NCBI GenBank assembly: GCA_944384505.1 | Contig: CALWTQ010000004.1 | Span: 27,879-91,878, forward strand | Direction: 5' to 3' | DNA length: 64,000 nt | DNA from: an uncultured Mediterraneibacter sp. | GTDB taxonomy: Bacteria; Bacillota; Clostridia; Lachnospirales; Lachnospiraceae | Shown: positions 15,516-64,000 of the stretch, one piece after another | Position numbering within the stretch: the stretch's first letter is position 1 | Layout: the number at the start of each line of letters is the position of its first letter | Notes under the pieces: model-generated | The model's input: the letters and a program-made list of their open reading frames with translations, nothing else | What the model was told of the DNA's origin: nothing | Databases searched by the model: none | Translations under genes and position numbers: made by a program

Positions 15516-15633
15516 ATTAAAAGGCCCCTTTCTTTTTAGAGCGCTCCTGAGGATTACTGGAAACAGCCAGAGTCCCGGGAGCGTTTCATGATGCTATTCT
15601 AGCACAAGGCGGATGGAAAGTCATTCAAAAGTT

Positions 15634-15986
15634 CAGCTATAAAGTTCAATAACACTTTCCGGCAAAATATGTCCGGAAGCGGAGCGAATGTTTTGCAGTG
15701 CGTATTCTGTGAAAAGGAGACAGCCGTGCGATGTTCCGTTCCAGAATCTGGAAAATCTAACAGGCCGAAGAGCTGTTTAAGGACAAAGCAGCACGGGGAG
15801 CAACTCGCTTCGCTCAGACAAGTCTCCCCGCACTGCTTAACAACATCTCTTCGCCCTCAAGATTTTCAGCAGATTCTTCCAAAGTCACATCTCCCGGCTG
15901 TCTCCTTCCCCCAGAAAGCATACTCAAATCGTCCGCTCCGCTTCCTGCGCATTCCCAGACGGAAGTGTTATTGACTTAATAAGCTG
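15634..15986. repeat. Giant hairpin repeat, copy 1
   Basis: A near-palindrome of about 350 bases. The ends CAGCTATAAAGTTCAATAAC and TTATTGACTTAATAAGCTG pair. The arms stay complementary, with mismatches and small bulges, down to a seven-base perfect stem (15794-15800 with 15824-15830) closing the loop CAACTCGCTTCGCTCAGACAA at 15801-15821. Landmarks on opposite arms include GGAAGCGGAGCG against CGCTCCGCTTCC and GGAGACAGCC against GGCTGTCTCC. It lies between two divergently transcribed genes. The short open frames inside it look accidental. Confidence 0.85.
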
Positions 15987-15997
15987 CAAAGCGCAGT

Positions 15998-16051
15998 TGG
16001 CGCGGCTTGAGGGCTTTTCGCTGCGAAAGTCTTCCGGCCACGCCTGCTTCT
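15998..16051. repeat. GC-rich flank module of the giant hairpin repeat, copy A
   Basis: TGGCGCGGCTT at the left and GGCCACGCC at the right can pair, with CTTTTCGCTGCGAAAG as an inner stem. The reverse complement of this segment recurs at 63945-63998, again adjoining a giant hairpin copy, so it seems to travel with the element. Confidence 0.65.
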
Positions 16052-16056
16052 TTTGA

Positions 16057-16395
16057 CAGCTATAAATTCATTAACTTCCGGCTTGAAAAGCCCAGAAAAC
16101 AGCCCTATTTCGAGAAAGATTCTGCAGGGATGGAGGACGGCGATGGGCGCCTTCGGAAGGGGATTAGTGAAACTCGAAGTTCCGGTTACGGATGTTGGGA
16201 CAGACGGAGAGATTTGTCTGAGCGAAGCGAGTTGCTCTCCGTCTGTCCCTGCTTTTAATCCGTGGCGGGGACTTCCTAGTTTCCCTTATCCTCTGGAGCG
16301 AAGCCCGGAGCCGTCCTCCATCCCCGCAGAATACGTCTCAGAAATCCCCTGTTTTCGGACGTTTTGCATCCAGACATTAGTGAACTTTATAGCTG
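16057..16395. repeat. Giant hairpin repeat, copy 2
   Basis: The second copy, 70 bases after copy 1. Ends CAGCTATAAATTCATTAAC and TTAGTGAACTTTATAGCTG pair. The middle has a perfect 15-base stem (16197-16211 with 16235-16249) around TTGTCTGAGCGAAGCGAGTTG (16214-16234), the reverse complement of the copy 1 loop. The arms share GGATGGAGGACGG with CCGTCCTCCATCC. Copy 3 at the right edge of the window has the same sequence in inverted orientation. Confidence 0.88.
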
Positions 16396-16492
16396 CCAGG
16401 CAGAATCTTTCATTGCCTGAAATCCGGGTTTTTGATATAGTATTAAAGGACAGATGAAAGGCAGAGAGAATCTTGCTAAGGAGGATTACGAT

Positions 16493-25186: not shown

Positions 25187-25341
25187 AGCTATTTAGTGCA
25201 CGACCACTTTCCGCCAGCTATATATTCGTTAACTTCCGGCATGAAAAAACCAGAAAACAGCCCCATCCCCGCAGAATATGATTTTGAAATAGTCTCTGTT
25301 TTCGGATGTTTTGCATTCGGATGTTAATGATCTAAATAGCT
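25187..25341. repeat. Giant hairpin repeat, shortened copy 4
   Basis: Outer ends AGCTATTTAG (25187-25196) and CTAAATAGCT (25332-25341) are perfect inverted repeats. A second AGCTATATATTCGTTAAC end begins inside at 25216, so the left arm is partly duplicated. Both arms carry the family sequence (CCAGAAAACAGCCCCATCCCCG on the left, CTGTTTTCGGATGTTTTGCAT on the right), but the central ~200 bases with the apical loop are missing. Like copies 1 and 2, it lies between divergent genes. The other ~230 bases of the 25118-25503 gap show nothing I can name. Confidence 0.8.
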
Positions 25342-25503
25342 GGTGTATTTTAAGAATACATTGTGCTCCCCGCATTCCTGTGCTAATATTTATTTATAGT
25401 CAGAAACAGCAGAATATTTATATATGTGTGTAATTTATTATAACAGGAAATGTGCCGAAGTTATGGCACAGGGAGTGATTCCGATATTTGCGGAGGGTAT
25501 GCC

Positions 25504-62980: not shown

Positions 62981-63044
62981 TGATGTCTGAGTGAATACCC
63001 GGAAGAAGAGGTGCCGGAAAGAGTCTTGGAGGAGGAATGTGGAG

Positions 63045-63596
63045 ATGACAGAAAAAGAGAAGTGGTTAAGAGGGGAATGGTTTCTGTGCAATGATCCGGA
63101 GCTTAAGGAAATCAGATACCGGTGCAGTAAAGAGATATTCCGTCTGAACGGAATGGATAATTCCCGGAAGGCGGAGCGCTATGAACTCCTCTGGGGACTC
63201 TTTGGTCATATGGGGGAAAATGTAAATATCAAGTCCTACTTTCAGTGCGATTATGGATTTAATATCCATGTAGGGGACAATGTATTTGTAAACGGCAACT
63301 GTGTGTTTCTGGATACAGGGCGCATTGACATTGGAGACGATACGCTGATCGGGCCGTCGGTTGGAATCTATACGGTCAACCATCCTACAGATCCTGTGGA
63401 GAGAAAGAAAGGGATCGAGCGTGCGCAGCCGGTACGTATCGGAAAAAACTGCTGGATTGGCGGAAACGCGGTGATCAATCCGGGAGTTGTCCTGGGGGAT
63501 AATGTAGTTGTGGCTTCCGGCGCGGTGGTGACGAAATCCTTTGGAGATAACGTGATGATTGCCGGAGTGCCGGCAAGAATAATAAAGCAGGTGTAA
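63045..63596 (+). CDS. maa: Sugar O-acetyltransferase (maltose/galactoside acetyltransferase type)
   Basis: 183 residues. N-terminal Mac domain (EKWLRGEWFLCNDPELKEIR) and a left-handed beta-helix with hexapeptide repeats (CVFLDTGRIDIGDDTLIGPS, GKNCWIGGNAVINPGVVLGD); the active His is in VNHPTDP. It acetylates sugars such as glucose or maltose with acetyl-CoA, perhaps for detoxification. ATG 63045 follows GGAGGAATGTGGAG; the frame from 62991 has no support. Confidence 0.9.
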   Translation: MTEKEKWLRGEWFLCNDPELKEIRYRCSKEIFRLNGMDNSRKAERYELLWGLFGHMGENVNIKSYFQCDYGFNIHVGDNVFVNGNCVFLDTGRIDIGDDTLIGPSVGIYTVNHPTDPVERKKGIERAQPVRIGKNCWIGGNAVINPGVVLGDNVVVASGAVVTKSFGDNVMIAGVPARIIKQV

Positions 63597-63597
63597 T

Positions 63598-63939
63598 CAG
63601 CTATAAAGTTCACTAATGTCCGAATGCAAAACGTTCGAAAACAGGGGCTATTTCTGAGACGTATTCTGCGGAGATGAAGGATGGCTCTGGATTCCGCTCC
63701 AGGGATATAAGTGAAACTAAGAGTTCCAGTGACGGACTAAATGCAAGGACTGACGGTGGACAACTCGCTTACGCTCAGACAATTCCACCGTCAGCCCTAA
63801 CGTCCCTCGCTGGAACTCTAAGCTTCACTAATACCCTTCCGAAGTCATCCATCGCCATCCTTCATCTCCGCAGAATCTTTCTCGAAATGGGGCTGTTTTC
63901 TGGGCTTTTTCAAACCGGGAGTTAGTGAATATATAGCTG
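63598..63939. repeat. Giant hairpin repeat, copy 3 (inverted relative to copy 2)
   Basis: Ends CAGCTATAAAGTTCACTAA and TTAGTGAATATATAGCTG pair. The central stem TGACGGTGGA (63751-63760) with TCCACCGTCA (63784-63793) closes the loop CAACTCGCTTACGCTCAGACAA. The arms resemble those of copy 2 read on the other strand. It begins two bases after the acetyltransferase stop. Confidence 0.88.
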
Positions 63940-63944
63940 CTGCG

Positions 63945-63998
63945 AGAAGCAGGCGCGGCCGGAAAGCTTTCGCAGCCGAAAGGCTACAAGCCGCGCCA
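63945..63998. repeat. GC-rich flank module of the giant hairpin repeat, copy B
   Basis: AGAAGCAGGCGCGGCC at the left and GCCGCGCC at the right can pair around an inner AAAGCTTTCGCAGCCGAAAGGCTA stretch. It is the reverse complement of 15998-16051 with few changes. The window ends here. Confidence 0.65.
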
Positions 63999-64000
63999 GT

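Follow-up and report, generated by a model that had tools for sequence, protein, structure and literature searches.

A giant two-hairpin element behind stop codons in a Mediterraneibacter genome, with a hairpin tip apparently common to several phyla

Introduction

Bacterial MITEs (Correia, RUP, ERIC and the like) have short inverted ends, carry no gene and reach high copy number. REPs, in the portion of the literature cited here, are described as tagged palindromes with stems of 5-13 bp (GTAG type) or 8-9 bp (CGTC type) that form head-to-head dimers with structured spacers (PMC3733652). According to the excerpts concerned, a significant share of REPs lies 1-20 nt from the end of an ORF, and REPs at distances below 16 nt reduce translation (PMC12306157); the TnpA of REPs reads the tag, the loop or a bulge (PMC8266576).

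Here we analysed a 64,000-nt stretch of genomic DNA from an uncultured Mediterraneibacter sp. (the window). An earlier note on this DNA had pointed to giant near-palindromic repeats unlike REPs. Our results bear out that distinction: the hairpins measure ~340 nt compared to REP stems of 5-13 bp, no tag was seen, and no linked RAYT was found. We describe the architecture of the repeat, its position behind stop codons, the constraints on its fold and its relatives elsewhere, and weigh the explanations that might account for them.

Overall architecture of the element

The long self-complementary repeats proved to be real. Folding energies of -153 kcal/mol (15634-15978; z -12.6), -183 kcal/mol (16057-16395; z -14.0) and -172 kcal/mol (63598-63939; z -15.8) were obtained, and in each case none of 100 shuffles folded equally well. 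What had been taken for two repeats in tandem at 15634-16395, however, turned out to be the two halves of one element, as a profile of 29 aligned copies (31, including the window's own, from which two reverse duplicates were removed) matches the interval from end to end, positions 1-761, on the minus strand. The interval is a single gene-less element of ~761 bp, in which two hairpins of ~340 nt face each other head to head on either side of a small central hairpin (Table 1).

The repeat at 63598-63939 is also genuine but is not a whole unit; it belongs to the first 402 profile positions of a second element (63598-64000), and the window stops inside this element because contig C4 ends there. 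The copy described as shortened at 25187-25341 is shortened indeed, and corresponds to an internally deleted solo hairpin at about 25208-25342.

Table 1. Features of the two-hairpin element and its further copies in the window
Feature	Position	Strand	Evidence
Full-length two-hairpin element (profile 1-761)	15634..16395	-	nhmmer match over full length, 818 bits
Hairpin A (profile 1-342), apical loop on + strand	16054..16395	+	CM match 16167-16283 +, 108.7 bits
Apical motif GTCTGAGCGAAGCGAGTT of hairpin A	16216..16233	+	
Spacer with small GC-rich hairpin GGCGCGGC...GCCACGCC (profile 343-412)	15984..16053	.	paired in consensus fold
Hairpin B (profile 413-761), apical loop on - strand	15634..15983	-	CM match 15752-15868 -, 105.5 bits
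Apical motif of hairpin B	15802..15819	-	
Promoter-like site just beyond left edge	15596..15624	-	weak
Promoter-like site just beyond right edge	16413..16441	+	weak
Start of second element (profile 1-402), covering hairpin A and some of the spacer	63598..64000	+	464.9 bits; CM match 63712-63828 -, 113.7 bits
Stop codon of hexapeptide acetyltransferase gene 62991-63596	63594..63596	+	1 nt before element at 63598
Internally deleted solo hairpin (profile 1-81 and 290-348)	25208..25342	-	

Among 29 aligned tip pairs of the same genome, the element is 754-772 bp long, most commonly 759-761 bp. One tip pair has been widened to 1086 bp by an IS200-type insertion. In the first loci examined, a minus-strand tip is followed by a plus-strand tip ~412 bp on. 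The termini, which start with CAGCTATAAAGTTCACTAAC and end with GTTAGTGCGCTAAATAGCTG, are terminal inverted repeats with sharp boundaries: of the 56 full-length copies, 51 have CAGCT and 50 have AGCTG at the respective end. The two promoter-like sites flanking the element in the window compare with 1.0 expected from shuffles, and are thus weak.

Copies in the same genome and the question of mobility

In the window's own genome (labelled G000), the hairpin tip has 252 matches at up to two mismatches (177 for GTCTGAGCGWAGCGAGTT and 75 for a 19-nt form), compared to none for a reversed-pattern control; the element end has 339 matches (184 and 155), again with a control of zero. Fifty-six different full-length copies were present in the loci examined, together with 93 partial pieces, many of these cut by contig ends; flank analyses were based on the full-length copies. 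Many contigs break inside the element (C1, C4, C75, C103, C113, C118 and others), hence the assembly gaps are probably caused by the repeat itself. Identity among full-length copies ranges from 75 to 98%, with a mean of 83%, and the closest pair, 98.3% identical, occupies different sites. Extra solo ends resembling CAGCTATTTAGTTCA adjoin full elements on the left (L001, L038, L051, L124, L149 and L168) or on the right (L138 and L159), and look as if duplicated or left behind.

The ends differ in other Mediterraneibacter species: elements of genome G002 are bounded by AAATCTGTATTTGTG...CACAAATACAGATTT, the left end being found in 10 of 11 copies, and the end in G029 is AAATCTGAGTTTG. No excess of target-site duplication was detected around the 56 copies for k = 2-15 (z at most 1.9), nor was there any complementarity between their flanks for k = 3-15. 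By eye, target duplication was likewise absent from ten G002 copies with both ends and from G029. The 7-bp duplications that seemed apparent at early single examples failed a shuffle test.

These data bear on the suggestion that the repeat is a large MITE-like element. In form it fits, being a dispersed element with sharp inverted ends and no gene, of which two copies are 98.3% identical, but neither a target duplication nor a transposase partner was found. An ordinary DNA MITE of a DDE or other transposon, whose hairpins are merely DNA ends and whose RNA-like look is incidental, would also account for the internally deleted and truncated forms and for the different ends in other species. We nevertheless consider such an origin quite unlikely, given that no autonomous relative with matching ends was seen in the loci examined, this genome consisting of 141 contigs, many broken in the element, and that covarying stems with a near-constant tip in lineages with different ends (see below) are unexpected for a MITE.

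The element mostly lies directly behind stop codons

Gene context could be assigned to 54 of the 56 full-length copies, the other two having too little flank, with ORFs called mechanically. The flanking genes are in tandem at 36 elements, divergent at 11 and convergent at seven. The earlier proposal of a position between divergent genes therefore fits the element at 15634-16395 but is no rule, and a transcription insulator between divergent genes finds correspondingly no support as a general rule; most elements instead follow immediately upon a stop codon.

Among gene 3' ends facing an element, the stop codon falls within -19 to +9 bp of the element edge in 40 of 50, most commonly 4-6 bp outside. 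By comparison, facing 5' ends (n=57) lie 11-590 bp away, except for one at -16. Counted per element, 36 of 43 are stop-adjacent against 9.8 expected from random insertion into the same gaps, a value reached in 0 of 20,000 simulations. The stop codons beside elements are TAA (14), TGA (8) and TAG (7), and 11 further genes run into the element and terminate at a stop within its end sequence. As all three stop codons are used and 11 stops lie inside the element, no single fixed target word explains the position. In four convergent gene pairs (L012, L018, L133 and L163) both stops touch the element.

Adjacency to stop codons is clear in this genome, partial in two others of the genus (in G029, 8 of 17 facing 3' ends are at most 25 bp away, and in G002, 6 of 14) and weaker elsewhere: in the cross-phylum set described below, with element edges defined by arm alignment, 4 of 24 facing 3' ends lie this close, compared to 3 of 20 5' ends.

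Two genes allowed comparison across species. The C-terminus of galT is kept in 30 loci, with element-like ends directly behind its stop codon in G000, G002 and G051. In the latter two (L478 and L471, respectively), the elements have different ends, AAATCTGGATTTG, and follow the galT stop directly as in G000; several element-free species have a hairpin terminator behind galT, as judged by eye. Behind a PRPP-synthetase-like gene (L133 in G000), also represented by 30 loci, element-like ends follow the stop codon in G000, G037, G036, G051, G002 and G054, and in G057 a tip lies 164 nt behind the gene. At the stop of the other 23 of the 30 loci no element end is present; in four of these 23, a tip is located 332-606 nt away. 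Five of the six ends are of the AAATCT type and may derive from one shared ancestral event. Even if so, together with G000 they indicate at least two independent arrivals at this gene. More generally, species that carry an element behind the same gene may have one ancestral insertion in common.

Relation of the element to terminators

We compared element-free ends with element-bearing ones using orthologues of these two genes. A strong hairpin within 100 nt was present at 25 of 49 element-free orthologous ends, compared to 5 of 29 positions beyond the elements of G000 and 3 of 82 random windows at a cut-off of 22; at a cut-off of 18 the corresponding counts were 31 of 49, 7 of 29 and 15 of 82. 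This hairpin scan replaced an insensitive scan for terminators, which had detected motifs at 9 of 49 orthologous ends, 0 of 11 ends with an element, 5 of 40 positions beyond the elements of G000 and 1 of 91 control genes. Within the element itself, that scan, with the same low sensitivity of 9 in 49, found a terminator-like motif in 0 of 40 stop-adjacent elements when read in the direction of the gene. We had considered the giant hairpins as intrinsic terminators and set this aside, as no combination of a GC hairpin and a T run was found in these 40 elements.

The position behind stops and the fewer terminator hairpins beyond the element would also be expected if the hosts had evolved giant hairpins in place, as immobile super-terminators or insulators at gene ends. 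Such an origin appears highly improbable, because sharp-ended copies of one sequence family, up to 98.3% identical, are found at different genes.

Covariation and strand bias of the hairpins

The apical region was aligned over 37 sequences, of which 11 come from G000, 20 from 15 further Mediterraneibacter genomes and six from three other genera. Changes on both sides were found in 32 of 35 pairs, and 93.2% of the cells are paired compared to 63.9% in shuffled alignments. The covariation score of 0.841 compares with 0.269 for shuffled alignments (0 of 500) and at most 0.23 for slid partners. Within the copies of G000, 42 of 113 pairs together show 549 double Watson-Crick changes, against 165 other departures. 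The tip, TTGTYTGA...GAGTT, is near-invariant in the 37 apical regions with few exceptions, and the small tip helix varies in concert (GC/GC, AC/GT, GT/AC and GGC/GCC). About 15 bp below the tip, an asymmetric internal loop is kept, with GTTA on the 5' side and a TTTTAG-like run on the 3' side.

The mismatches are strand-biased. Read in the tip direction, the copies of G000 have G.U in 83 cells versus A.C in 31 at consensus Watson-Crick pairs, cell counts that are inflated by shared descent, and in 43 versus 21 columns. The excess arises from both G-C and A-U pairs. As the two hairpins of an element lie on opposite strands, replication bias is not an easy explanation, and the excess points to a single-stranded form folded in the tip direction. 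Together with the strong covariation, this one-strand excess in the genus lends support to the earlier suggestion of a structured RNA, as far as sequence comparison can tell. In other genera and phyla the bias is absent (G.U to A.C 9:12 and 14:11); hairpins outside the genus may therefore have a DNA-level role or be subject to arm-correcting mutation.

In two genomes, G171 (L389-L394) and G417 (L400-L405), the copies share an inner stem of ~55 bp, and the outer stems differ from copy to copy yet remain self-complementary.

Pairing might alternatively be kept by mutation alone, if template switching copied one arm of the quasi-palindrome onto the other. Copy-specific, self-complementary outer stems, seen by eye in G171 and G417, and the lack of G.U bias outside the genus would fit this mechanism. 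We consider it improbable, since the conserved internal loops remain unpaired, the tip is nearly invariant and the mismatches within the genus are strand-biased.

Distribution across the genus, the family and other phyla

The apical covariance model has matches in 48 of 58 Mediterraneibacter genomes, including 28 of the 35 best ones. A covariance search of Lachnospiraceae, as the earlier note had suggested, yielded matches in 44 of 397 genomes, which represent 40 of 334 genera; two of these 44 belong to Mediterraneibacter itself. As at most 64 matches per genome were scored in the genus and nine in the family, copy numbers from these model searches are lower bounds.

A scan of GTDB representatives for the exact tip pattern returned at least 113 stretches from many phyla, against a chance expectation of ~2 by our own arithmetic. 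The taxa among the matches listed (80 of 113 titles) include Betaproteobacteria, Gammaproteobacteria, Nitrospirota, Bacteroidales, Gastranaerophilales, Cloacimonadota, Clostridia and others. As an exact-pattern scan returns just the queried tip, the tip looks constant from phylum to phylum in part through the choice of query, and the independent evidence for a cross-phylum class is the hairpins around it. When 70-nt arms were aligned, 75 of 111 tips were flanked by arms that pair better than all 1110 shuffles, and 86 of 111 by arms that beat 99% of them. This test replaced a stricter one over 16 flanking pairs, in which at least 13 were paired in 25 of 116 cases compared to 66 of 5800 shuffled ones.

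In 20 genomes picked for having a match, tips at up to two mismatches number, for example, 75 in Clostridium sp. KNHs205, 45 in Ralstonia soli, 41 in an Anaerocolumna MAG, 29 in Undibacterium umbellatum and 26 in Herbaspirillum sp. 3R11, with a control of 6 for the last. A covariance-model search of 32 of the at least 113 loci revealed head-to-head pairs, minus tip then plus tip, in Herminiimonas, Desulfuromonadales, Polaromonas, Sedimenticola and Bacteroides (L260, L311, L320, L283 and L332). Other close arrangements also occur, with two minus tips at L265 and two plus tips 287 bp apart at L358.

A T-rich block follows the giant hairpin in 44 of 112 matches and precedes it in one. The block is one arm of a second hairpin, of which all eight consensus pairs are changed on both sides in an alignment of 36 sequences hand-picked from 73 candidates. 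This second hairpin, found in several phyla, lies 60-90 nt 3' of the tip and has a T/C-rich stem (CTTACTTTCTTTTG gcgaag CAAAAGAAAGTGAG), often with a U.G pair; examples are L257, L281, L320, L325, L298, L332 and others, and a CCGGG hairpin often comes next. Among 13 folded loci inspected by eye, several from proteobacteria suggest a foot helix enclosing the giant hairpin and a small GC hairpin.

At gathering score, Rfam matched no hairpin in the window or in 18 cross-phylum loci, matches elsewhere in these loci being T-box, tRNA and Gut-1; below gathering score there were microRNA matches alone (E 0.07-0.98). The Mediterraneibacter element has no match in phage or plasmid collections, and an exact tip 21-mer has none in IMG/VR. 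A Ralstonia hairpin matched no phage and four plasmid records, all over the second-hairpin side only (19-26% of the query). The 16-nt tip strings and the second-hairpin strings were not found in the text of the open-access papers searched, and topic searches of the literature returned papers on REPs, MITEs and stem-loops, and unrelated ones. The searches thus brought up neither a gathering-score Rfam match nor a phage match, each of which the earlier note had named as evidence against its view, and the folding is far beyond that of shuffled sequence. A wide class of giant hairpins with one common tip sequence in several phyla has apparently gone undescribed.

Candidates for a mobilising partner

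REPs suggest a further explanation, namely a giant REP/BIME-like system whose palindromes are moved as single-stranded DNA by a hairpin-reading Y1 transposase, either TnpA-REP/RAYT or IS200-type. The habits are REP-like: the element is intergenic, forms head-to-head pairs with a structured spacer, lies near stop codons and shows no target duplication. Moreover, 49 of the 58 Mediterraneibacter genomes carry Y1_Tnp genes, and G000 has five Y1_Tnp matches, two of which are inside an element or immediately next to one (in the spacer on C15, and on C73). These two IS200-type genes, however, were judged more likely to be independent insertions. Seven of the nine genomes lacking a Y1_Tnp match still have hairpins, for example G024 (at least 43 model matches, completeness 100) and G037 (at least 36). 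RAYT-like genes of 255-308 aa have no hairpin nearby in 19 of 20 loci, the only exception being that of G000, with model matches 2.3 and 6.8 kb away. No GTAG tag was seen at the hairpin foot, and the stems are far above 13 bp. Altogether, we regard a giant REP-like system as unlikely.

The IS200-type gene on C15 (L175, 2204-2880) has a 142-aa Y1 frame and sits in the spacer of one copy; that on C73 (L047, from about 2150) has a 107-aa Y1 frame at the broken end of a copy. Y1_Tnp frames of 246-309 aa are found in 37 of 58 genomes of the genus. Their distribution (32 of 48 genomes with model matches compared to 5 of 10 without) gave no clear association, and a Y1/RAYT partner was set aside on this count. 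The Mediterraneibacter loci L409-L428 encode RAYT-like Y1 proteins (255-308 aa) of two types, with the sequences MPRTARRKS... and MPRSKRKQSGTD..., respectively. Among 138 neighbouring proteins at 80 cross-phylum loci, no family was seen more than three times.

Discussion

We propose that the repeat is a non-coding dispersed element, mobile or formerly mobile, whose structured RNA takes the position of a terminator at gene ends, and we put the chances of this reading at about even. Its unit would be a giant hairpin with an apical loop that hardly varies, and the Mediterraneibacter form joins two such units inside short inverted ends. Judging from the sequence comparisons, action as a structured RNA at gene ends is most likely. 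The pairing and its strand bias may reflect selection on a single-stranded form folded in the tip direction, most simply RNA, and the element would insert at, or be retained at, gene ends, where it replaces the ordinary terminator. A transcript entering the element could then form a duplex of great length immediately behind the terminating ribosome. Such a duplex might end or protect the message of the upstream gene and shield neighbouring genes, and stop codons in the termini of the element would end translation at its edge and so keep ribosomes out. The tip may be the recognition site of a putative widespread protein, which would either act on the RNA or provide mobilisation in trans. As to the spread of the element, a Y1 transposase is the natural candidate by analogy with REPs.

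More tentatively, the hairpins of several phyla might form one class of mobile giant-hairpin RNAs, in which a widespread protein reads the constant apical loop, the stems are free to vary as long as they pair, and the elements are delivered to or kept at stop codons, where they replace terminators; we hold this extension possible but doubtful. If it is true, a kind of element would be defined by the shape of an RNA and aimed at the ends of translation or transcription, rather than being a transposon with DNA ends. Should our reading be correct, a structured element named neither in Rfam nor in the literature searched is carried by many bacteria of the gut and the environment, and three matters become linked: the stop-codon adjacency of REP-like palindromes, spread without a recognisable transposase, and a reader of a common apical loop. 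As the genus has species with dozens of copies beside species in which none was found, loss, gain and effects on gene ends are directly testable.

Like intrinsic terminators, the element presents a hairpin behind the stop codon and, in convergent pairs, occupies a bidirectional position; it differs in being a dispersed sequence family, about ten times longer, with no T run detected. It shares covarying helices and near-invariant loops with the large structured RNAs of Rfam, but no hairpin matched any of them at gathering score. It has the short inverted ends, the lack of a gene and the high copy number of MITEs, and differs from them in that no target duplication was found, the body is constrained by pairing and the tip is common to several phyla.

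The closest resemblance in habit is to REP/BIME/REPIN sequences. Both, as far as the cited excerpts portray the latter, are dispersed intergenic palindromes that form head-to-head dimers with structured spacers and lack target-site duplication, and both tend to lie near stop codons, a good share of REPs being within about 15 nt according to the cited excerpts, and 40 of 50 facing 3' ends here within -19 to +9 bp. They differ in that the median stems of the element are ~80-155 bp in the sets measured (with the span limited to 170), that its hairpins of ~340 nt have ends of the form CAGCTATA... with no GTAG or CGTC tag seen, and that its constant part is the apical loop, with no RAYT found linked to it. 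REP-like in habit, the element thus departs from REPs in size, tag and partner, and there is a real chance that it is a separate kind.
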